Assembly (NCBI GenBank): GCA_913053845.1 | Contig: CAJXGD010000022.1 | Coordinates: forward strand, 1 to 35,160 | From: an uncultured bacterium | GTDB lineage: Bacteria > Bipolaricaulota > Bipolaricaulia > RBG-16-55-9 > DRJF01 | DNA length: 35,160 nucleotides | Direction: 5' to 3' | Shown: in pieces, positions 13,424 through 24,215 of the stretch | Layout: each line of letters starts with the position of its first letter | Position numbering within the stretch: the stretch's first letter is position 1 | Translations under genes and position numbers: made by a program | Notes under the pieces: model-generated | Databases searched by the model: none | Told to the model about the DNA's origin: nothing | Seen by the model: the letters and a program-made list of their open reading frames with translations, nothing else

Positions 13424-14455
13424 TTACCGCTCGGTGCACACAGTCACTCCGCGCACGTGCATGGGTGCGATCGTCGCCGGTGCTATTTGTTTGCCCTGCG
13501 GATTGAAGATGAAGAGACCTCCGCTCTCAGCACCTTGGCCACCAAAGCGCACATTGGTGACATAGACACGGTCATCGGGTCCGATGGCGATCTGATTGGG
13601 GAACACAACTTTAGCAAAGACCCCCTTGAAGGCCCCATCCGGACCATATCGTAGAATCTTGTTGTTTGTAAAGTCGGTCACAAAGACGTCCCCCTGGCTG
13701 TTGATGGCAGCCATCACAGGTAGAAAGGGATAACCGGTCTCCAGGTCCTTATGGGCGAGTATGAACTCCTTGGTGGAAGTGAAGCCCGGCGCAACTGCCC
13801 GTAGTACCTGCCCTCTCGGCATAGTTGATTCATTGGGAGATTCTACGATCAACAGATCCCCTTGAAAGGGACCTGTGGTTAGGAATACCGTAGGATCTAT
13901 CGCATCAAAGACCTCTCCTGTCGGACGCAGGACCTGTTGCGGCACCTGGAACTTCCGATCGGATTGCAGCGCGCCTGGAATGCGCCAAACACCCCGTGAA
14001 CCGGCCCCTGTTGAGAATGTCCCAAAGTATAGGTCCCCGTTGGGTGCGAAGACAAGGGCATCCGGTCGTAGATCAACTCGCTGAAATACCAGTGTACGTC
14101 TACTACCATCGGAGTTGAAACGCTGTATGCGACTGTAAGCGTAGTCAGGCGCATAATCTACAACGTACAACCGCCCGTCAGGGCCACAGAGGACGATTGA
14201 TGGATCATTCAGTCCTGCGACGACATCTGTGAAGAGGCCCAGTTGCAGGTCCAATATCTTCACGATTGCACCGCTAGGTGCATCTTCCGCACGGGTAAGA
14301 TAAACGGTTCCGTGACCCGGTGAGGCCTGAGCCGCGACTCCCAACGCGCCCGCACCATCCGATATTCCCAAAGAAAGCCAAGCAACCAACATGATCAAGA
14401 GCCCAAGCCGGAACCCTGACCGGCCGCCTACCCGCATTTTGTGCAGCAAATACAT
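13424..14455 (-). CDS. Secreted NHL/SMP-30-like beta-propeller protein (no C-terminal anchor)
   Basis: The protein has 343 residues, with a basic N-terminus and a hydrophobic segment at about 16-40 that works as a signal peptide or anchor. The rest consists of propeller-like repeats, such as V-L-C-G-P-D-G-R-L-Y-V-V-D-Y, F-A-P-N-G-D-L-Y-F-G and I-G-P-D-D-R-V-Y-V-T-N. These are typical of NHL/SMP-30 (gluconolactonase-like) six-bladed propellers. It resembles the two following paralogs in architecture but is more divergent and lacks their C-terminal membrane tail. GGAGG lies 7-8 bases before the ATG. The convergent Crp/Fnr gene ends 121 bases away. The ligand or enzymatic role cannot be told. 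Confidence 0.75.
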   Translation of the reverse strand: MYLLHKMRVGGRSGFRLGLLIMLVAWLSLGISDGAGALGVAAQASPGHGTVYLTRAEDAPSGAIVKILDLQLGLFTDVVAGLNDPSIVLCGPDGRLYVVDYAPDYAYSRIQRFNSDGSRRTLVFQRVDLRPDALVFAPNGDLYFGTFSTGAGSRGVWRIPGALQSDRKFQVPQQVLRPTGEVFDAIDPTVFLTTGPFQGDLLIVESPNESTMPRGQVLRAVAPGFTSTKEFILAHKDLETGYPFLPVMAAINSQGDVFVTDFTNNKILRYGPDGAFKGVFAKVVFPNQIAIGPDDRVYVTNVRFGGQGAESGGLFIFNPQGKQIAPATIAPMHVRGVTVCTER

Positions 14456-14519
14456 TAGGATACCTCCTTCTCGAATAGATGATCGTTACTGCCTGTTGTT
14501 TACATCAAGCCGATAAGAT

Positions 14520-15569
14520 TCAACTATCCTTGGCGACCCTCCTTTTGAAGACATATACCCCCAGGAAAACCCATAGGGCAGTTAGTTCCAAAGGGAAGTG
14601 AGGCTGAGACCCGGTTGTATGGGCCGATGTGACCGTCGAGTACTTGCAGACTGCAATGCCGGCACCCTCTAATGGGATTCCTGTTACCAGCGTTTTCTCT
14701 CCTGAAGGGCTAATCCTGAAAACCGCATTAGTTGAGACAGCCCAAAGGTTATCCTGAGAATCAAAGGCCATACCGGTGATACTGATGAGTGGCCCGCCTG
14801 AGGGTACGAGATTGCTAACGAACGCACCGTCAGGCGCAAATTTGGTTATCCCAGTTATCTCACTGGTTCGCAGGGAAGCCACACCGGCGCTAACCACGAA
14901 AATTTCTCCTTGACCATTGATCGCGAGAGCAGCTGGATGATAAATATCCTTCTGAAGAAAGATCGTTGGCTCACCACAGCTGGTCTGGTTGGCGCTCGTA
15001 CAAAAATTCCGACGATTGATCTTATCCACAACGCCATCTTCAATGTCAGACACGATCAGATCACCGGCATACAGGCCCTTCGTAAGTATTGCCGTCCCTC
15101 CTCCAACGATATACTCTCCAGGAGTACCAAATTGGCGAACGATCTGAACCGCCTGATTGGCAGGATTCGCACCTTCCAGTCGCCAGGCTCCTCCTATCGC
15201 GGTATTTGTCCAATAGAGGTTCCCTTGAGGATCAAAGCTAGGTCCTTCAGGAGCATGCCAGAGGTCCTTCCCCAAGGTCCTATATATCTGAGTTATCTGG
15301 TGTCCATCCTGACTTACCCGAATGATGCGATGTTTCCCTCGTTCCGCAAAGTAGAGGTAACCATCAGGGCCACAGACCCCGAGTACCAGGTGATCAAACC
15401 CTACTACGATGGGGATCAAGCCCTGAATGGTAGGATCGACTCGGTAAATAGCACTCCCTGTTGAGTCTGTATCGTTCCATGTGCTGACAAAGACTGTATC
15501 AGCTAGAACAACAATACTCGCAACGTACACGCTCACAACCACAACTAGAAGTACTTTAAGCCAAGACAT
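14520..15569 (-). CDS. Secreted beta-propeller with C-terminal membrane tail (paralog A)
   Basis: This 349-residue protein has a signal peptide (about 1-23, M-S-W-L-K then a valine-rich core and V-L-A-D). An NHL/SMP-30-like propeller with V-C-G-P-D-G-Y-L-Y-F and F-D-P-Q-G-N-L-Y-W blades follows. The C-terminus reads F-P-L-E-L, a hydrophobic helix, and K-R-R-V-A-K. That tail is tripartite (P-x-E, helix, basic end) and matches the tail of its neighbour. The layout resembles sorting-type tails such as PEP-CTERM, although the motif is not the standard V-P-E-P. The gene is a tandem paralog of 15668-16726, sharing the near-identical start M-S-W-L-K-V-L-L. A GGGGG ribosome site lies about 9 bases before the ATG. 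Confidence 0.75.
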   Translation of the reverse strand: MSWLKVLLVVVVSVYVASIVVLADTVFVSTWNDTDSTGSAIYRVDPTIQGLIPIVVGFDHLVLGVCGPDGYLYFAERGKHRIIRVSQDGHQITQIYRTLGKDLWHAPEGPSFDPQGNLYWTNTAIGGAWRLEGANPANQAVQIVRQFGTPGEYIVGGGTAILTKGLYAGDLIVSDIEDGVVDKINRRNFCTSANQTSCGEPTIFLQKDIYHPAALAINGQGEIFVVSAGVASLRTSEITGITKFAPDGAFVSNLVPSGGPLISITGMAFDSQDNLWAVSTNAVFRISPSGEKTLVTGIPLEGAGIAVCKYSTVTSAHTTGSQPHFPLELTALWVFLGVYVFKRRVAKDS

Positions 15570-15667
15570 TGTGCTAACCCCCTTTGATGATAATCGAGTT
15601 AAGCTACGGTACAGATGTCATACACTACTCTCTTAGACTACCTAGCAGTGAGCTAGATTACATACCA

Positions 15668-16726
15668 TCACTTACAATGGTGTACTATTCTTTTCCCGAA
15701 GGTATAGAGCCCTAGATAGAGCCATATGGCACCTAGCTCCACTGGCACGTGATGCTGAGAACTGCTTGAGCCTCCCGCTGTGGTTGCGGAATCTTTGCAA
15801 ATGGCAATCCCCACTCCTTCGAATGGAACGGCTGATACAAGCGTCCTTTGACCAGAGGGCGTTATTTTGAAGACGGCGTTAGCGGTAACGGCCCAGAGAT
15901 TGTCCTGCGAGTCAAATGCGATACCGTCTGCTTCGGTATTACCCAGATTCACAAACTGGCCCATAAAAGAGCCATCCGGGGCAAACTTGGTTATCCATCC
16001 TCTTGAGGGATGCCAAGACGTATTGCTTGTATTGCTGCTACCCACAAAGATTTCTCCGCGACTGTTGATGGCCAGGCCGAATGTTTGACCCAGGTTTTCC
16101 TGGAGGAAGACTTTAGGTTGAGCGCAGTTGCTACTGCTTGCGCTGGGGCAATCCGCAGGGTTGATCTTGTAGACCACGTTTCCCGCATGGTGTGATACGA
16201 TAACCTCTCCAGCATACGGTCCCTTCGTCAGAACGGCTGTTGCGGCTCCTATCCAATGACCAGGGGCAGGCCCGAATGGAGCAGTGATCTGAAGTGGATC
16301 TTTCGCTGGATCTGCACCATCTAACCTCCAGAGCCCGCCGTATCCCCCCGTAGTAAAGTACATGTCCCCTTGAGCATCAAAGCTCGGTCCATCAGGACCG
16401 CTATACATGTTGGTAGGTTGGTCGGACTGGCCAGGCAATTTCGCCACCGTGGTTAGTTGAGTACCGTTTTGAGTTACACGGATGATGCGAAGATTTATAA
16501 CATCCGAGAAATACAGATTGCCATCGGGGCCGCAAACCCCTTGGTCCCAACCGGGGATGCCGGTTTGAAGTATGGGTATTGCTCCTTGGATGGAAGGGTC
16601 TACGCGGTACAGAGACGTCGGAATGTCCCAATTCCATGTACTGACAAACACAGTATCAGCCAGACCGACTGAATTAGCAAGCCACATAGTCACCACTAAA
16701 ATCAGAAGAACTTTAAGCCAGGACAT
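15668..16726 (-). CDS. Secreted beta-propeller with C-terminal membrane tail (paralog B)
   Basis: The protein has 352 residues and the same plan as the downstream neighbour: signal peptide, propeller, and a C-terminal V-P-V-E-L-helix-G-K-R tail. Blades include V-C-G-P-D-G-N-L-Y-F-S-D, F-D-A-Q-G-D-M-Y-F-T and I-N-S-R-G-E-I-F-V-G. Two cysteines in the central region (D-C-P...N-C-A-Q) have counterparts in paralog A. AAGGAGGT lies 7-8 bases before the ATG. Upstream are three 11-bp-spaced TAGTA repeats and then the SARP/BTAD regulator gene on the same strand. This suggests the regulator controls the propellers. Function is otherwise unknown. Confidence 0.75.
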   Translation of the reverse strand: MSWLKVLLILVVTMWLANSVGLADTVFVSTWNWDIPTSLYRVDPSIQGAIPILQTGIPGWDQGVCGPDGNLYFSDVINLRIIRVTQNGTQLTTVAKLPGQSDQPTNMYSGPDGPSFDAQGDMYFTTGGYGGLWRLDGADPAKDPLQITAPFGPAPGHWIGAATAVLTKGPYAGEVIVSHHAGNVVYKINPADCPSASSSNCAQPKVFLQENLGQTFGLAINSRGEIFVGSSNTSNTSWHPSRGWITKFAPDGSFMGQFVNLGNTEADGIAFDSQDNLWAVTANAVFKITPSGQRTLVSAVPFEGVGIAICKDSATTAGGSSSSQHHVPVELGAIWLYLGLYTFGKRIVHHCK

Positions 16727-16790
16727 CGCATTGACCTCCTTTTGAGGCGCTGTAGATACCTCTACGACATCACCACCCTACCACACCGAC

Positions 16791-16820
16791 CTACTAGAGA
16801 CGTACTAAATCCCTACTAAG
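16791..16820 (-). promoter_or_regulatory. Three TAGTA direct repeats at 11-bp spacing, SARP-type operator
   Basis: On the minus strand the heptamers TTAGTAG, TTAGTAC and CTAGTAG recur with cores at 16814-16818, 16803-16807 and 16792-16796, exactly 11 bp apart. Characterised SARP regulators bind heptameric direct repeats at one-helical-turn spacing, and the gene just upstream encodes a SARP/BTAD-type regulator. The first repeat overlaps that gene's stop codon. Possible -10 boxes downstream are TAGGGT (16780-16775) and TATCTA (16758-16753), both weak. Confidence 0.5.
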
Positions 16821-17646
16821 CAGGTCCAAAGGAACAGGAAGATGGTGACCTGCAGGGATTATTATTAAACTTCTCAGTCCGGATCGCCTCGCAGAGCGCC
16901 CGCGTCTCCGGCGAGGGCTTGGCCGCAAAAAACTCGGCCAGCATTCGTTGTAAACGTCTATAGGTGCGCATCATACCTGCAGAGTCACCTAGCCGAGCGT
17001 AATAGCCCATCAACTGCCGGTAGACCGTCTCGCTGCGCGTCGGCTCCAGCTCGATTGCTTGCTCGACCCGCGCGATCGCCCTCCGGTACTGCCCCAAACG
17101 CGCGTAGCACTCCCCCAGGCGCGTCAGCAGCTCCCAGTAGATGCGCCTCCAACGCCCCTGATAGGCCAGCGCCCAGCCCTCATAGCGCTCTTCGGCCAGA
17201 TAATCGCCCAGATAGAGCGCGGCCGCCCGCTCGTAATGGATCACGGCTTCATGTCCCCTCCCGGCTCCTTCCAGAGCTCGGCCCTCCCGATAGGCACGCT
17301 CAAAACGCTCGCTGTCTATCTCGCAGTCGGCCGGGGGGTCGAAGCGATAGCCCCCACGTAGTGTTCGAATGTAGCGCGACTGTGCGCCCTGCTTCAGGCT
17401 AGGCTCCAGAACTCGTCGTAGCTCGCTGACGCGATTGCGCAATGAGGAGACGGCCCGCTCCTGACCAGAATGGGGCCATAGCCACTCGATCAGCTTATCT
17501 TGAGTGACTACCTCCCCCCTCTCACTTACCAGGATGGCCAAGAGTTGCTTGCACTTGCATGTGCGCCACTCGTGCAGGCCGATCGGGTCCGTCTCCCCCT
17601 CGCGCCAGACGTGCAGTCCTCCAAAAAGCTGAATTTTTAGGGTCAC
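16816..17646 (-). CDS. SARP/BTAD-family transcriptional activator
   Basis: The protein is about 276 residues. An OmpR/PhoB-like winged-helix domain occupies about residues 3-93, with L-F-G-G-L-H-V, a W-R-T-x-K-x-K-Q-L-L-A-I-L block and L-R-G-G-Y-R-F. A bacterial transcriptional activator domain of TPR-like helices follows (about 100-240; G-D-Y-L, L-G-E-C-Y-A-R-L-G-Q-Y). No ATPase or sensor domain follows, so it is a short stand-alone SARP. The start is taken as the GTG at 17646 because GGAGGGAGG precedes it; an in-frame GTG at 17670 lies upstream of that ribosome site and has none of its own. Its likely targets are the propeller genes downstream, given the 11-bp repeats at 16791-16820. Confidence 0.85.
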   Translation of the reverse strand: MTLKIQLFGGLHVWREGETDPIGLHEWRTCKCKQLLAILVSERGEVVTQDKLIEWLWPHSGQERAVSSLRNRVSELRRVLEPSLKQGAQSRYIRTLRGGYRFDPPADCEIDSERFERAYREGRALEGAGRGHEAVIHYERAAALYLGDYLAEERYEGWALAYQGRWRRIYWELLTRLGECYARLGQYRRAIARVEQAIELEPTRSETVYRQLMGYYARLGDSAGMMRTYRRLQRMLAEFFAAKPSPETRALCEAIRTEKFNNNPCRSPSSCSFGPA

Positions 17647-17726
17647 CTTACCAGCACACCCTCCCTCCACTTAAAGACTGCCGGCGGAGATGGAGGTGAA
17701 CCTAACACCCTGACCCCTCTCCTTCC

Positions 17727-17865: not shown

Positions 17866-19134
17866 TTACTGGAGCGGCGAGACAGGGCTGAAGACGGCGT
17901 GAAACTCGTTGGCCGACGTGTCGGTCAGCCGCGTCCGATCGCTGCCATCGGCATTAGCCAGATAGAGATCATACTGGCCGTTCTCTTTGTGTGAGTAAAG
18001 AATGCGATCCTGCTCATCCCAAGTCTCGATCTGCCAGGATTGGGCCTGCCAATAGACCCAGTTCTCACCCTTATCGAGCCATTTGAGTCCGGTGCCGTCT
18101 GCGTTCATGACACCTAGACGACCCATCTCCGCCAGCGGCGGATCGCTGGGATCGCTGGTGAAGCAAAGCTGTTTGCCATCAGGCGACCAGTTGGCCTGCA
18201 CCTGGGAGGCCTCGATATGGCGCAAATAGCGACGCGAGGTGCCGTCGGGCGCGATCAGTTCTACATCCGAGGGTTTGTTGTAGTCGGCGGCCAGACGATA
18301 GACGATCTGCTTTCCATCGGGTGACCAGGCTGCGATCCCACTCTGCGTGGCCCGGTCGAGCGCTCGCGGGTCGCTCCCATCGCGGTCCACGATCCAGAGC
18401 TGGAAATGTCCATTATGACCCAAGTTGAAGACGATCTGCCGCCCGTCCGGGGAGAAGCTCGGCTTATTGATCTTGCCCTCAGAGGTGAAGATGCAGTGAT
18501 CAGCGGTGGCAACCTCTCGGATCACATCCAGCTTCAAAATACAAAGCTGACTGCCCACCAGGCCACCCCGAGTGAACAAGAGCTCGCTCCCATCAGGCGA
18601 CCAGGAGATCCAGTCCTCATCCTCCGGCGTGTGGGTCAACTGCTTGCTCAGGTTGCCCTCGGGACTCATCATGAAAATGTCATCATTGCCCTCTCGATTG
18701 GAAAGAAAGGCGATCCATCGGCCGTCCGGTGACCAGCGAGGCTGGCGCTCGTTGGCCATATCAAAGGTCAGCGCTCGCGTGTGACCATACTCATCCATCA
18801 GCCAAATATCATTGCTCCCGTTCCGGTCGGAAACATAGGCGATCACTCGATGCAGCGGCGGCGGAGCCGTGACCAGATAGTGTTGGTAGACGCTCTTGAT
18901 CGCCACCGCATCCCCGCCGATCATCAGTGCGGCCAGACCAATCCACCCCAGGGCTAAGCTGTACAGCCATCGGCTACTGAGGACCTGCAGGCTGCTGCTC
19001 GCCCTCAACTCCTTTCGTGCCCGTAAGCCCACGGAGGTCCAATAAGCTTGCCCCAACGCGAAACAGAGCGCCGCGCCTCCGGCTAAACCTAGGGCAACCA
19101 ACAGCAACGCGCCTACAACCTGAGAGGAGAACAT
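17866..19134 (-). CDS. Membrane-anchored TolB-like (PD40) beta-propeller protein
   Basis: The protein has 422 residues. Two hydrophobic segments, at about 6-30 and 57-77, anchor it in the membrane; a basic stretch lies between them. From about residue 95 the protein is a TolB/PD40-type propeller with repeated W-S-P-D-G or F-S-P-D-G turns and Y-V-S-D-R-N-G-S-N-D-I-W-style strands. Such domains usually mediate protein contacts outside or at the membrane. The ATG at 19134 has no Shine-Dalgarno sequence, and a promoter at 19148-19177 places the likely transcript start about 6 bases before it, so the mRNA is nearly leaderless. It is divergent from the CHAT gene and shares the control region with it. 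Confidence 0.82.
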   Translation of the reverse strand: MFSSQVVGALLLVALGLAGGAALCFALGQAYWTSVGLRARKELRASSSLQVLSSRWLYSLALGWIGLAALMIGGDAVAIKSVYQHYLVTAPPPLHRVIAYVSDRNGSNDIWLMDEYGHTRALTFDMANERQPRWSPDGRWIAFLSNREGNDDIFMMSPEGNLSKQLTHTPEDEDWISWSPDGSELLFTRGGLVGSQLCILKLDVIREVATADHCIFTSEGKINKPSFSPDGRQIVFNLGHNGHFQLWIVDRDGSDPRALDRATQSGIAAWSPDGKQIVYRLAADYNKPSDVELIAPDGTSRRYLRHIEASQVQANWSPDGKQLCFTSDPSDPPLAEMGRLGVMNADGTGLKWLDKGENWVYWQAQSWQIETWDEQDRILYSHKENGQYDLYLANADGSDRTRLTDTSANEFHAVFSPVSPLQ

Positions 19135-19147
19135 AATAACCGGCTAC

Positions 19148-19177
19148 ATCTTATGCAGTCGGCAGAATGGTTGTCAA
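19148..19177 (-). promoter_or_regulatory. Promoter of the TolB-like gene
   Basis: Minus strand TTGACA (19177-19172), 18-base spacer, TAAGAT (19153-19148). Only 13 bases separate the -10 box from the ATG at 19134, giving a very short leader. Confidence 0.6.
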
Positions 19178-19190
19178 CTAGGGAGTTGAC
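19173..19190. promoter_or_regulatory. Inverted repeat joining two divergent -35 boxes
   Basis: GTCAACT (19173-19179) and AGTTGAC (19184-19190) are perfect inverted arms around a 4-base centre. Each arm contains most of one -35 element, one for the TolB-like gene and one for the CHAT gene. A single dimeric factor here could control both promoters at once. Confidence 0.5.
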
Positions 19191-19219
19191 TTTGATGATT
19201 GAGTTGTGCTAAGCTCAAT
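19186..19219 (+). promoter_or_regulatory. Promoter of the CHAT gene, with overlapping dyad
   Basis: TTGACT (19186-19191), 18-base spacer, TAAGCT (19210-19215). ATTGAG (19198-19203) and CTCAAT (19214-19219) form a 6-bp dyad with a 10-base centre across the -10 box, a plausible operator position. Confidence 0.45.
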
Positions 19220-19243
19220 TTGAGGTAGGTTAGGGGGCACAAA

Positions 19244-20896
19244 ATGAGAGGGGCTACCAAGACATCGGATGCCCAGGTCGCTGATGTTTTACCCGGTGAG
19301 GTGGCCGGTGAACAGAGTTGGCGGTTTGAAGCGAGCGAAGCCGATTTTCGCTTCGCAGTGCTCCATCCGGATATCGCAGTGGCTCTAGTCGAAACGCCGT
19401 TTCACTTCTCAGGGACAGCCGAGCGAGCTTGTCAGGGTGAACTACGAGGGGTGCGGATCGCGTGGCACCCGCTCCTGACCACCGAGCTCGCCAAGACCCA
19501 ATATAGCGTACTGGTGAAGCTCCAGGCAGCTTTCTCACCCTTCTGCCCGGCATGGCGCCTCGATCTCAGCGCAGCGTCTCAGTACCAAGCTCTCCAGGTC
19601 AATGTCCGCTGTTATCCCCTCTTCGGCCTATGGACCTCCCTGTGGCTCCGGCCCACCCAAGCGCTGTGGTTCGATCTGCTCCAGGCGCTGGTCTGCAGCT
19701 TAGGTCACGCAGCGGAGCGGCTTGCTCAGGGAACTCCCGAGGAATTGTTAGGTTCGCTGGCCTCACCTGAGCAACGGGCCTCACTCAAGACCTATCTCCA
19801 ATCGCGTGACTCGACAGTCCGATCTGTTACTCTTGAAGGCAACCCCGCCGCCGCATCGCTCAGCATACTGGATGTAGGCGACCGGACGCTGGCTCGCTTT
19901 CGGACGAACCTGCCTCGCCCGCGGCGAGGGCAAGAGGCGGTGCATGTCGGTCAGGCAGAGCGGGCCGAGCTCTTCGCTGCTTTTGGGCGACTGGCTCGTG
20001 CCGGGGTTGCTTTTTCGACTTTGCGTGGAGCGGAGGAACGTCGAACCTTGGGACGCGACCTGCACGAACGGCTGATCCGGCTGGGCCGCCGCCTCTACGC
20101 GCTCTACATCCCGAGGAGCACTCACGGGTATCTCACCGCGCTGCTCGAAGCGCACCCAGAGGCCCCCTTGCGCCTGGAGACCGAAGGCCCGGTTCGCGCA
20201 CTCCCTTGGGAACTGCTGCACAACGGTGAGGATTTTCTCTCGCTGCTCCTGCCCTTGGCGCGTACGCCGGTTCAGATGCTGGAAAATCCGAGGGGGTTCA
20301 TCGGTTCCGTGCGCCGAGTCCTGCTGGTCAGCCCACAGAGCGAGCTTGAGCAGGCGGCCGGTGAGATAGGGACAATCTATCAAGTTTTGACCGGCGAGCT
20401 TGGGTTGCAGGTCGAAGTGCTCGCCGGGCGCGACGCCTCAAAAGCAGAGTTGGTCCGCGCGCTCCGAGCAGGGAACTTTGACGCGCTGCACTATTCGGGC
20501 CATTCGTGCCACGATCCCGATCGGGCCGGCGCAAGCTATCTCATCTTGAACGGGGGACGCAAACTGCGTGCCGACGAGCTGAGACGCTTGGCCCAGGAGA
20601 GTCATCTCAAGCTGGTATTCCTCAACTCCTGCGCCAGCGGCTCGACGGTCGGGTGGGCCGGTGAGGGGGTGGCCGGGCTGGCCGACGCCTTTGTCCAGAA
20701 CGGGATTCCCTCTGTGATCGGGATGCGCTGGCCGGTGAGTGACCGGGGAGCTCGCACGCTGGCCCTCGCCTTCTACCATGAATTGGCCCAAAGCGGTGAT
20801 CCCGCTGCGGCCCTCAGGCAAGCAAGGTTGGCCGTCGGCAGCGATTCCGATTGGGAGGACCCCACCTGGGCCGCGCCGCTGCTCTATTTGGCCTAG
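19244..20896 (+). CDS. CHAT domain (caspase-like) protease
   Basis: This 550-residue protein has an unrecognised N-terminal half (about 1-290) and a C-terminal CHAT domain (about 300-550). The caspase-like catalytic pair is visible: H-Y-S-G-H-S (His416/His420) and L-N-S-C-A-S-G (Cys463). Typical surrounding motifs are L-P-W-E-L-L-H-N-G and V-I-G-M-R-W-P-V-S-D. CHAT domains are cysteine endopeptidases related to caspases and separases. AGGGGG lies about 7 bases before the ATG. The stop shares a CTAG tetranucleotide with the stop of the convergent anti-sigma-like gene. Its neighbours (TolB-like propeller, zinc-finger protein, sigma-like protein) suggest a regulated proteolysis module. No signal peptide was seen, so it is probably cytosolic. 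Confidence 0.88.
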   Translation: MRGATKTSDAQVADVLPGEVAGEQSWRFEASEADFRFAVLHPDIAVALVETPFHFSGTAERACQGELRGVRIAWHPLLTTELAKTQYSVLVKLQAAFSPFCPAWRLDLSAASQYQALQVNVRCYPLFGLWTSLWLRPTQALWFDLLQALVCSLGHAAERLAQGTPEELLGSLASPEQRASLKTYLQSRDSTVRSVTLEGNPAAASLSILDVGDRTLARFRTNLPRPRRGQEAVHVGQAERAELFAAFGRLARAGVAFSTLRGAEERRTLGRDLHERLIRLGRRLYALYIPRSTHGYLTALLEAHPEAPLRLETEGPVRALPWELLHNGEDFLSLLLPLARTPVQMLENPRGFIGSVRRVLLVSPQSELEQAAGEIGTIYQVLTGELGLQVEVLAGRDASKAELVRALRAGNFDALHYSGHSCHDPDRAGASYLILNGGRKLRADELRRLAQESHLKLVFLNSCASGSTVGWAGEGVAGLADAFVQNGIPSVIGMRWPVSDRGARTLALAFYHELAQSGDPAAALRQARLAVGSDSDWEDPTWAAPLLYLA

Positions 20897-21519
20897 CCCT
20901 TCCCCAGGAGATAGCTCCGCAGCTGGCCGGACCACTCAGCGCTCAGACCGCATTCTGTGCCATGGTGCTCGATGAGCTCTCCCAGTCGTCGGGGCGGGAT
21001 GTCACCGAGACTCCGGGCGTGCTCCCGTTCCAGAATCGTGGCCAAGAGGGCCGCGACTGCTACAGCGATCCGGTCATCGGTTGCGCCCCTGACCGGTTGA
21101 GGTCTCGCATGGGCGATCTCTCTCAAGGGCCTTTCGGCCAACAACTCCCAGATCTCACCCCAAACTTCAAGTTCCTGGGGACGATGGAGATTCAGAAAAC
21201 CCTTCAGTTGCTCGAACAGCTCGTTTTTCTGCGCGCGCTCCAGCAATTGATCTGGCTGAGGCAAGGCCGCGCTCAGCCGATCGCTCAGCCGATCCCAGGC
21301 GGCCCGCAGGTCGCTCAGTGCCTCGAAGCACTGCCCACAGCTATTCAGATGCGCCGCGACCGTCATCCGCTCGCTCCGATCGAGCTCCTCGGCGGCATAG
21401 GCGATGAGCAGCTCCTGGGGGAGATGGTCGCCATACTCAGGCATGACAGCCTGTCCCCGGAACGCTTGCATCAGGAAAGGCTGCAATTCAAACTCGTTCG
21501 GCCGTTGGCTCAATGGCAT
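20893..21519 (-). CDS. Zinc-finger (zf-HC2) anti-sigma-like protein
   Basis: The protein has 208 residues, starting at the ATG at 21519, which has GAGAGGAG about 6 bases upstream; further in-frame codons upstream lack this. Residues 34-72 carry the anti-sigma zinc motif H-x3-C-x2-C (His57, Cys61, Cys64) after L-L-I-A-Y-A-A-E-E-L. The remainder is helical. No membrane segment is seen, so unlike many anti-sigma factors it is probably soluble. The start overlaps the end of the sigma-like gene by 32 bases, the usual sigma/anti-sigma coupling. The stop overlaps the convergent CHAT stop. The protein could be held in complex with the sigma-like protein and be a CHAT substrate; this is inference. Confidence 0.7.
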   Translation of the reverse strand: MPLSQRPNEFELQPFLMQAFRGQAVMPEYGDHLPQELLIAYAAEELDRSERMTVAAHLNSCGQCFEALSDLRAAWDRLSDRLSAALPQPDQLLERAQKNELFEQLKGFLNLHRPQELEVWGEIWELLAERPLREIAHARPQPVRGATDDRIAVAVAALLATILEREHARSLGDIPPRRLGELIEHHGTECGLSAEWSGQLRSYLLGKG

Positions 21520-22669
21520 TCTCTGCTCCTCTCTGAGCATCTGTCTCATCGCTGGCAAAGCCCAATGCTCGTGCGGTCAGGTTGAGGTCGCGCTCGATGC
21601 GACGCTTGGTCATATAATCACCTGGATGAGGGCCACCGGGAAACCGACGACAGACCTCCACCCAACTGAACCGGCATCCCTGGATCATATCCAAGGTTAC
21701 CTGCTCCAGAGGGGTGACCTGAGGTGGCTTGGCGCGCCCGACGGCGGGGAAGTGGCTGAAGACATAGATCATATACGCCTTTAAACCTGTCAGCGCGCGG
21801 CGCGACTCGCGCTTGAGCTGGGCGAAGATCAGGCAGAGCTCCAGACGCCGCCGCTCGGCCGGATCGCGCAAGTCAGTTAGAAAATGAGCTAAGCGGTCAT
21901 CAGGGCGGTGGCAACGGACCAGCCGGTCCTGGTAGCGCAGCCGCTCCAGAGCCACGCACGCTTCGTATTCAGGCTGCTCGGCGAAGGTCGTCCAAGCATA
22001 GTTTTCCAGCTCATGCTGGGGAACCTCCTGGCGAAATCCCAGCCGGGGGCAGACCGGTGTGATCCAAGGGCAATACTGGCACGCCCTACGGCGATGGTCC
22101 GAGGAACCGCTGAAGGCGGCGCAGAGGCGATCGAGCAGTGAGCCGCTCTGAGATGAACTTCCGTCCAGGAGCTCATATTGTCTGGACACGAATTCGGCCA
22201 AGAAGTAGTCGCTGAGCCCTTCGAGTGAGGGGTGATCAGAGATGCTGAAAGAGGCGGCAAAGCGCTTTCCGAGCTCCTCTTGCAGCTCATATTTAGCCCA
22301 GCTGAGGTAGCGCCGGTGCGTTTGCGCTCGGTGGCTTGTCGCGATGCCTACCAGCAACTCATGCGTGGTATAGGGCCTGCGGTCAAGTCCCCGGCGGCGC
22401 AACGCCTCGATCAGGCGGTAGCGGACCGTCTCTCTCCCGATCCGCCGGATCTTGCCGCTTTGGAGCTCACCCCAGAGTGCAGTGAAGGCATCCAAGACCG
22501 CGTCTTCCAGCTCATCTTGCTTACGGGGACGACCGCCGCTATGATGCCCAGCGAAGAGATGCTTGAGCTGTTCGGCGTAAAAACCCCAACTGCGCAGCAA
22601 TTCCAGCGCTATCTGTTGGATCAGCTCACGCCGAGCCAGCGCCTCCCGGTCGTTCACGACTACCTCCAT
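21488..22669 (-). CDS. Divergent sigma-factor-like protein with Cys cluster
   Basis: The protein has 393 residues, starting at the ATG at 22669 with GGTGGAG just upstream. I do not recognise a standard family. Residues 50-95 resemble sigma-70 region 2 (D-E-L-E-D-A-V-L-D-A-F-T-A-L-W, then R-E-T-V-R-Y-R-L-I-E-A-L-R-R-R-G). Residues 197-207 hold C-x2-C-x6-C, a possible metal site. The C-terminal about 60 residues contain a helical, basic segment that could bind DNA in place of region 4. The protein is much longer than an ECF sigma factor. The coupled anti-sigma-like gene supports the assignment. The start lies inside the end of gltX (44-base overlap). An unrelated DNA-binding role cannot be excluded. 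Confidence 0.5.
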   Translation of the reverse strand: MEVVVNDREALARRELIQQIALELLRSWGFYAEQLKHLFAGHHSGGRPRKQDELEDAVLDAFTALWGELQSGKIRRIGRETVRYRLIEALRRRGLDRRPYTTHELLVGIATSHRAQTHRRYLSWAKYELQEELGKRFAASFSISDHPSLEGLSDYFLAEFVSRQYELLDGSSSQSGSLLDRLCAAFSGSSDHRRRACQYCPWITPVCPRLGFRQEVPQHELENYAWTTFAEQPEYEACVALERLRYQDRLVRCHRPDDRLAHFLTDLRDPAERRRLELCLIFAQLKRESRRALTGLKAYMIYVFSHFPAVGRAKPPQVTPLEQVTLDMIQGCRFSWVEVCRRFPGGPHPGDYMTKRRIERDLNLTARALGFASDETDAQRGAENAIEPTAERV

Positions 22670-24146
22670 TTTGCTCCACCAGCGGCCGATTGAGCTGTCC
22701 GGTTTCAATCAATCGAGCCGTCCGCTCCAGCCGTTTGGCCGTCTCCTCTCGGCCCAAAAAGGCCATGATCTCAAATAACCCCGGCCCGCGGGTTACGCCG
22801 GTCAGCACCACCCGACAGGGCTGTGCGGCCGCTTTGAGCGAGCTGCCCTGAGCGGCCAGCAGCGCCCGCACAGCCGGCTCCAACCGCTCTGGAGTGAATT
22901 CGCTCAGCTCGCCAAGTTCGGTGGCCAGAGCGCGCAACAGCGGCACCACATCCGGGGTCAGGAATTTTTTAACCTCCTGGGGGTCGAACTGCAGCCGCTC
23001 GGTCAATAGATAACCGGCAGATTCGGCCAGCTCCACCAGCGTATGGACGCGCTCCTTGAACAGCCCCACGACGGTCTGCAAGCGCTCGGCCGGCAGCGCC
23101 TGAGCCTCCTGGGTGCTCATGATCTCTTGCCGGACCAAAAATTCGCGCAGCAGCTCCCCCAGCCGCCCGGGATCGCCGTGCATGAGATAATGCTGGTTGA
23201 GCCAGAGCAGCTTCTCTTCATCGAAGACCGCCCCGCTGGCTCCCACCCGCTCCAGCGAGAACTTTTCGATCAGCTCCTCCCGCGAAAATATCTCCTGCTT
23301 ATCGTCATAGGCCCAACCCAGACGGGCGATGAAGTTTAGCAGCGCTTCGGGTAGGAAGCCTCCATCACGATAGCTCTTGAGGGAGGTCTCGATCTGGCTG
23401 CGGCGCTTGGAGAGCTTGTGCCGGCTCTGGTCCAAGACCATGGGCAGATGGGCGAATTGGGGCAAGCCGTAACCCAAAGCCCGATAGAGCTGAATCTGCT
23501 TGGGGGTGTTGTTCAGGTGCTCATCGCCGCGAATCACGTGGGTAATCTTGAGATCGGCATCATCAATTACCACCGCAAAGTTATAGGTCGGTCGCCCGTC
23601 GGAGCGCAGGATGATGAAGTCGTCGAACTCCGCATTGTCGAACTCCACCTGACCCTTGACCAGATCCTCCACCACCGTAACACCGCTCTCAGGGAACTTG
23701 AAGCGCAGCACCGGCCGGCGCCCCTCGGCGATCAGGCGCTTTTCATCATCTGGGCTTAGCCGGCGGCAACTCCGGTCATACCTGACTTGGCCCCCCTGGG
23801 CCAGCGCCCGGCGTCTCTTGGCCTCCAGCTCTTCAACCGTGCAGTAGCAATGATAAGCTCGGCCCGCGGCGAGCAAACGCTGGGCCGCTTGGCGATAGCG
23901 CTCCAGCCGCTCCATCTGGTAGTAGGGACCCTCGTCCCAATCCAGACCCAGCCAACGGAGTGTCTCCATGATCGCTTGGGCCGACTGGCGGCTTGAGCGC
24001 TCCGTATCGGTATCCTCGAAGCGTAACACGAACGTTCCACCGTGTTGCCGGGCGAAGAGCCAGTTGAAAAGCGCTGTGCGCGCCAGGCCGATATGAGGTG
24101 CGCCGGTAGGTGAGGGCGCAATGCGCACCCTAGCTCTATAACTCAT
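22626..24146 (-). CDS. gltX: Glutamyl-tRNA synthetase
   Basis: This is a class I synthetase of about 506 residues that charges tRNA-Glu (and possibly tRNA-Gln, if the non-discriminating pathway is used). The HIGH-type motif P-S-P-T-G-A-P-H-I-G lies at residues 11-20 and the KMSKS-type motif K-L-S-K-R at about 244-248. Between them are E-D-T-D-T-E-R-S-S and V-I-R-G-D-E-H-L-N-N-T-P. The anticodon-binding C-terminal domain is present. The start is the ATG at 24146, where the family N-terminus begins; 16 extra in-frame codons upstream are not conserved. It follows korC by 69 bases and overlaps the sigma-like gene, so that gene is probably transcribed with a housekeeping gene. Confidence 0.95.
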   Translation of the reverse strand: MSYRARVRIAPSPTGAPHIGLARTALFNWLFARQHGGTFVLRFEDTDTERSSRQSAQAIMETLRWLGLDWDEGPYYQMERLERYRQAAQRLLAAGRAYHCYCTVEELEAKRRRALAQGGQVRYDRSCRRLSPDDEKRLIAEGRRPVLRFKFPESGVTVVEDLVKGQVEFDNAEFDDFIILRSDGRPTYNFAVVIDDADLKITHVIRGDEHLNNTPKQIQLYRALGYGLPQFAHLPMVLDQSRHKLSKRRSQIETSLKSYRDGGFLPEALLNFIARLGWAYDDKQEIFSREELIEKFSLERVGASGAVFDEEKLLWLNQHYLMHGDPGRLGELLREFLVRQEIMSTQEAQALPAERLQTVVGLFKERVHTLVELAESAGYLLTERLQFDPQEVKKFLTPDVVPLLRALATELGELSEFTPERLEPAVRALLAAQGSSLKAAAQPCRVVLTGVTRGPGLFEIMAFLGREETAKRLERTARLIETGQLNRPLVEQNGGSRERPGGAGSA

Positions 24147-24215
24147 CGTTTTCCATCTCAAAGAAATGATAGGCGATCCGGAGCTGCCCGTCAATTGGGG
24201 TATCCGGCGCTTGGT

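Follow-up and report, generated by a model that had tools for sequence, protein, structure and literature searches.

Does a peptidase gene that lies beside the genes for a sigma-like protein and its putative inhibitor belong to the same regulatory switch, and if so, does it set the switch off or is it one of the genes that the switch turns on? This question is raised by a locus on contig CAJXGD010000022.1 of assembly GCA_913053845.1, from an uncultured member of the Bipolaricaulota. The whole stretch of 35,160 nucleotides, here called the window, is one entire contig of a 2.3-Mb, 91-contig genome. A sequence-only reading had singled out four neighbouring genes, encoding a TolB-like membrane propeller, a CHAT cysteine protease, a soluble zinc-finger anti-sigma-like protein and a divergent sigma-like protein, and had suggested that the protease might cleave the zinc-finger protein and thereby release the sigma-like factor. 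The four open reading frames (ORFs) do lie where they had been placed. Comparison with related genomes leads us to conclude that the locus is a real, unnamed peptidase-linked sigma/anti-sigma module. As to what the peptidase does, the chances that it acts as the trigger seem to us about even.

A peptidase adjoins the sigma-like/anti-sigma-like pair

The pair in the window consists of the gene for the divergent sigma-like protein (21488..22708, minus strand) and that for a soluble zf-HC2 anti-sigma-like protein (20893..21558, minus strand). The gene for a 550-residue CHAT-domain cysteine peptidase (19244..20896, plus strand) is convergent with the zf-HC2 gene, and the stop codons of both fall within one CTAG at 20893-20896, just as the sequence-only reading had it. 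A profile of the sigma-like family found matches in all 19 genomes of the window's order and in some genomes belonging to other families of the class. The pair recurs across the order with its genes overlapping or abutting, and this recurrence exceeds chance. Members of the family are of two kinds: those with a region-2 half, which is either fused to the C half or encoded by a neighbouring ORF, and those consisting of the C half alone. A zf-HC2-type partner accompanies the C half in most loci, either overlapping it or abutting on it.

A peptidase directly adjoins the pair in 15 of the 15 readable loci that contain a region-2 half, the window included. The neighbour is a subtilase (S8) in seven of them (L045, L051, L053, L083, L084, L085 and L092), a matrixin (M10) in three (L044, L047 and L052), a caspase (C14) in three (L087, L088 and L089), a trypsin-like peptidase in one (L086) and the CHAT peptidase in the window. 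These are five unrelated classes, and catalytic motifs were found in the peptidases examined. Where the neighbour is an S8 or M10 peptidase, its gene is co-directional with the pair and lies within about 90 bp of it. Not counted were L090 and L091, which run off their contigs, and L046, where a 116-residue ORF after the zinc-finger gene looks by eye like a subtilase prodomain, Pfam giving no match.

The C-half-only members provide a comparison set of 29 loci (L048, L049, L050 and L093-L118, among them G000:C29 at L097:5645-6091, minus strand). Such paralogues are present in nearly every genome of the order, most having a zinc-finger partner and no region-2 half nearby, and beside them one usually finds SBP_bac_5 transporters with propellers, or RrnaAD or FAA-hydrolase genes. 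An S8 peptidase was found within two genes at 2 of the 29 loci, and two M20 exopeptidase proteins also occur near loci of this set. Fisher's exact test between the two sets gives 6e-10 when counted by locus, the loci being related to one another, and 4e-6 when the region-2 set is collapsed to seven lineages and the C-half-only set is left uncollapsed. Genomes carry 2-25 S8 match segments and 0-7 for M10; if 25-60 endopeptidases per genome are assumed, as we did, a peptidase neighbour would arise by chance at about 3-8% of loci.

The expectation that all four families would co-occur in relatives was thus not borne out, since CHAT is replaced there by a subtilase, matrixin, caspase or trypsin-like peptidase and the propeller is not conserved. 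A strict four-gene system was rejected for the same reason, the pair having neither CHAT nor the propeller as a conserved neighbour. The more general form, in which a sigma factor and a zinc-finger protein are accompanied by some peptidase, is strongly upheld by the 15 readable loci. Hence the idea of a protease-linked switch stands as a sensible reading in so far as a peptidase is regularly present in the neighbourhood of the pair.

Exchange of the peptidase class

When the peptidase class was marked on a tree of the sigma-like protein, six changes were needed with L046 given a label of its own, and five, read off the same tree, when this unconfirmed locus was left out. For S8 and for M10, supported branches require a minimum of two changes each. 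The branches leading to the window and to L086 are long, and the exact placement of these two is unsure. In L044, one replacement has apparently been caught midway. A 240-residue ORF directly upstream of the sigma gene (L044:6295-7017) shares 42% identity over 212 residues with the N-terminal, non-catalytic portion of the L092 subtilase. Nothing of the catalytic portion is left, and a matrixin gene lies 8 bp downstream of the zinc-finger gene. That the class was exchanged about five times suggests that the peptidase belongs to the switch.

The sigma-like protein

The protein comprises 393 residues if translation starts at the ATG at 22669, or 406 residues from the TTG at 22708, and its gene overlaps the 3' end of gltX (22626-24194, minus strand). 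It gave no match in Pfam, NCBIfam, PADLOC or PDB sequences, and loci of the family are not among the listed Sigma70_r2 Pfam matches. No match was obtained when the genome collection was searched directly with the 393-residue protein. A close-relative alignment search returned four loci, whose records all carry Fraserbacteria, Acetothermia or Bipolaricaulota in their titles, and a broader alignment contained no conserved stretch.

Profile-profile comparison (hhalign) was carried out against 18 ordinary extracytoplasmic function (ECF)-type sigma factors of the window's order, with a reversed alignment, six column shuffles and 14 unrelated families serving as nulls. The N half of the family aligned with ECF region 2 at a score of 36.7 (P 1.2e-4), and that of the fused forms at 40.8, the null maximum being 18.1. 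The C half came into register with the region-4 helix-turn-helix at a score of 22.4 (P 0.011), a weak signal compared with a null maximum of 17.2. This helix-turn-helix follows the region-2-like half, which is the order expected for a sigma factor. The label "sigma-like" is therefore supported for region 2, far above the nulls, and weakly so for region 4. These profile scores support the view that the 393-residue protein is a very divergent sigma factor, region 2 being supported and region 4 suggestive.

Between the two halves lies an insert of about 120 residues that carries C210, C213 and C220. The cysteine cluster that had been noted in this protein is thus present, and most aligned relatives are without it. 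The stretch CQYCPWITPVC at residues 210-220, absent from aligned relatives, may form a metal or redox site.

The sigma-like protein of several relatives is broken at one common point and encoded by two ORFs. These are separated by 9 bp in five f4 loci (L051:6122-7321, L053:5729-7054, L083:3849-5084, L084:2899-4272 and L085:545-1780), and they overlap by 4 bp in three f6 loci (L046:7246-8507, L088:1605-2890 and L089:1855-3128). The split members look like a two-polypeptide sigma factor, for which SigO/RsoA of Bacillus provides a parallel, and not like assembly errors.

The zinc-finger partner and its compartment

The zf-HC2 ORF of 221 residues opens at the TTG at 21558; the likeliest start is an ATG near 21519, in overlap with the end of the sigma-like gene. 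The protein matches PF13490 above the cut-off (E 3e-5) and a ChrR-family anti-sigma model at E 5e-7, below that model's cut-off. It carries HLNSCGQC at residues 70-77, and H45, H70, C74 and C77 are invariant in 11 paired zinc-finger proteins. Class I zinc-binding anti-sigma factors are marked by an Hx3Cx2C motif in an N-terminal domain and by a gene next to that of a sigma factor, and the zf-HC2 protein shows both, its gene overlapping the sigma-like gene. As no membrane helix was predicted, the earlier description of a soluble anti-sigma-like protein with an H-x3-C-x2-C motif is confirmed. The two genes are supported as a conserved sigma-like/anti-sigma-like module.

Membrane helices and signals were judged throughout by a simple hydropathy scan. 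In the window and in L086, a zinc-finger protein with no membrane helix goes with a peptidase (CHAT and trypsin-like, respectively) that has no signal peptide. All other intact zinc-finger proteins contain one membrane helix or more, and wherever the N-terminus of the accompanying peptidase is readable, it carries a hydrophobic signal. A Fervidolysin-type propeptide is present in the subtilases tested, which are therefore probably synthesised as zymogens.

Some loci have features of their own. The f6 membrane zinc-finger proteins (L088:2877-3707 and L046:8519-9250) have a C-terminal extracytoplasmic stretch that looks by eye like a LysM-like repeat, for which Pfam gave no match. In L086 (L086:1703-6953, G076:C75), the gene for a 918-residue protein with no Pfam match over the cut-off immediately precedes, on the same strand, those for the trypsin-like peptidase, the sigma-like protein and the double zinc finger; this protein may be the sensor of the L086 system.

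The CHAT peptidase and its surroundings

The CHAT domain (PF12770, E 1.1e-40) covers residues 281-546 of the 550-residue protein. The motifs HYSGH (416-420) and NSCAS, containing Cys463, leave the predicted catalytic pair His420/Cys463 intact, so that the CHAT protease with His416/His420 and Cys463 that had been read from the sequence is indeed there. Neither a signal peptide nor a membrane helix was seen by hydropathy, and the Pfam scan gave no tetratricopeptide repeat (TPR) match. It is the single CHAT copy in the 2.3-Mb genome; CHAT is rare in the order, being present in 3 of the 19 genomes at one copy each.

On its other side, the CHAT gene is separated from the divergent propeller gene (17866..19134, minus strand) by an intergenic region of 109 bp (19135..19243). 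This spacer holds an inverted repeat, TTGTCAACT-AGGG-AGTTGACTT at 19160-19200, which overlaps a -35-like TTGACT; a putative sigma-70-like promoter, TTGACT-N18-TAAGCT, precedes CHAT. The propeller protein is of the TolB/PD40 type (PF07676, E 5e-40) with two N-terminal hydrophobic segments. Its identification as a TolB-like membrane propeller was correct as to the type of gene, and a role in the module was not supported, as it is not a conserved neighbour. It lies beside the module and is probably not part of it. Further propeller-type genes occupy the minus strand at 13424-17670, of which 14520-15569 and 15668-16726 are near copies of one another, and a BTAD/OmpR-type regulator gene (16816-17670) lies beside them.

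Discussion

How might a peptidase act in such a module? In the trigger model, the zinc-finger protein would keep the sigma-like protein inactive, the neighbouring peptidase, once activated, would cleave the zinc-finger protein, and the freed sigma-like protein would redirect RNA polymerase. In most relatives the anti-sigma protein would be anchored in the membrane and the peptidase secreted (propeptide subtilases, matrixins and caspase-like proteins). In the window genome both partners would be cytoplasmic, and CHAT would work intracellularly, in the manner of Csx29 on Csx30 though without CRISPR. A cut in the zinc-finger protein would explain at once why the adjacency is fixed, why catalytic class makes no difference and why both proteins occupy one compartment.

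Several observations weigh against this model. Adjacency is equally compatible with the peptidase being an output of the pair, and CHAT, being on the opposite strand, is not co-transcribed with it. The combination of CHAT with the sigma/zinc-finger pair is known from one genome only, and there are just two soluble zinc-finger cases, the window and L086. The C14-linked zinc-finger ORF of L087 also lacks a membrane helix; judged by eye against L088, its helix was probably lost through a broken frame. The two C-half-only pairs with a divergent S8 neighbour weaken the use of that set as a negative control, and since its neighbour tally covers the 25 commonest of 103 families, a rare peptidase may have been overlooked. 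Finally, the sigma identity depends on profile comparison with a weak region-4 signal, and of two AlphaFold models, P0004 (mean predicted local distance difference test, pLDDT, of 68) and the compact, 311-residue relative L047 (pLDDT 85, predicted template modelling score, pTM, of 0.70), neither gave a significant PDB fold match by Foldseek.

The most serious alternative, which we regard as somewhat less likely, is that the pair is itself the stress sensor, through its zinc finger or a membrane portion, and turns on the adjacent peptidase gene; the peptidase class would then be free to change, since nothing beyond the making of some peptidase would have to be retained. The S8 and M10 genes, co-directional with the pair and so close to it, are placed as co-regulated genes would be, an orientation that is neutral or favours this alternative. 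Sigma factors often control their own neighbourhood. Moreover, soluble zinc-finger anti-sigma factors can themselves be redox sensors (PMC7406223, PMC8999054). However, a peptidase as output does not by itself predict that anti-sigma protein and peptidase share one compartment. Nor is a common promoter apparent: upstream of the peptidase and sigma genes, inspection by eye revealed ordinary -10-like boxes alone (TATAAT-like in several operons) and no special motif shared by them, and in the window CHAT runs convergently to the pair and has no promoter in common with it. The compartment match and the convergent orientation thus slightly favour the peptidase as trigger.

It is also conceivable that CHAT stands beside the pair by coincidence, as one of two convergent genes, the module having lost or relocated its own peptidase and CHAT serving otherwise. 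The opposite strand and the occurrence in a single genome would fit this, as would the further CHAT loci examined in the phylum, which have no member of this sigma/zinc-finger family within about 1.5 kb. We nevertheless consider it improbable, as the single CHAT gene of a 2.3-Mb genome touches the zinc-finger gene, all other readable region-2 pairs adjoin a peptidase, and the soluble zinc-finger protein suits a cytoplasmic peptidase, as in L086. There is also little likelihood that the 393-residue protein, instead of being a sigma factor, is a helical protein of another kind, DNA-binding or signalling, with zf-HC2 proteins as partners. The empty Pfam, NCBIfam, PDB and Foldseek searches and the weak region-4 signal speak for such a protein, whereas the alignment of its N half to ECF region 2 far above the nulls, the helix-turn-helix that follows in the expected order, and an overlapping zf-HC2 partner of the kind typical of sigma factors speak against it.

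A further reading, somewhat less likely than not, is that this new family of divergent, sometimes two-polypeptide sigma factors has a peptidase slot, which any endopeptidase able to reach the compartment of the anti-sigma protein could fill as the release enzyme. The five classes might then have replaced one another, with the anti-sigma protein gaining or losing its membrane anchor to match.

The theme of peptidase-gated sigma factors is not new. In type III-E CRISPR systems, Csx29, Csx30 and CASP-sigma give an experimental precedent for a sigma factor released by a peptidase (PMC10028731). As in the window, a CHAT peptidase is found there beside a sigma factor and its inhibitor, and in both the catalytic Cys lies 43 residues after the His (H615/C658 in Csx29, H420/C463 in the window). 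Unlike Csx29, the window CHAT protein has no TPR match, its candidate inhibitor is a zf-HC2 protein, and its position is taken by other peptidases in relatives. No Cas10 was found over the cut-off in the genome, which is about 91% complete, Cas7-11 and Csx30 not having been searched for; this agrees with the earlier statement that no CRISPR genes are visible, and together with the missing TPR match it places the locus outside the type III-E CASP systems. CalpL/CalpT/CalpS provide a second experimental precedent, in which cleavage of the anti-sigma factor initiates sigma release (PMC11417357). There, as proposed here, a peptidase, an anti-sigma factor and an ECF sigma factor act together, but the peptidase is of the Lon type and fused to a SAVED domain sensing cyclic tetra-adenylate (cA4), the sigma factor is an ordinary ECF one, and the system depends on type III CRISPR.

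Several peptidase classes beside one sigma factor are also seen in ECF54, whose neighbourhood, exemplified from Geodermatophilus, is reported to include carboxypeptidase, subtilase and CHAT proteins (PMC8999054). ECF54 is said to have no anti-sigma factor, and the peptidases were proposed to act on the sigma factor itself (PMC8999054). By that description the window family differs, as a zf-HC2 partner overlaps the sigma-like gene, and also in that its sigma family is not recognised by Pfam. For the S8, M10 and C14 relatives, a likely parallel is the removal of membrane anti-sigma factors by peptidases in RseA/DegS and RsiW, as cited in PMC10028731; these have one fixed peptidase pathway in place of an interchangeable neighbouring gene. 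The TRADD-N/EACC2 systems resemble the module in that a caspase, in some cases with a trypsin-like peptidase, is encoded beside an ECF sigma factor; as far as the account in PMC8195603 goes, they differ in their multi-domain caspase fusions, a TPR (DUF1822) partner and the lack of a zf-HC2 pair. No description of this sigma family, its zinc-finger partner, the exchange among five classes or the matching relocation of the anti-sigma protein was found in the open-licence PubMed Central literature.

Known peptidase-released sigma factors are separate, fixed pairs. A family that keeps a peptidase while its catalytic class changes would, if our reading is true, indicate that selection maintains cleavage in the correct compartment, and it would link the CHAT and caspase switches of the CRISPR type to ordinary envelope-type anti-sigma proteolysis. 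One sigma/anti-sigma family with five natural peptidases offers a direct test of this idea. Standard models do not pick up the family, so that switches of this type escape the current annotation of Bipolaricaulota and possibly annotation elsewhere.

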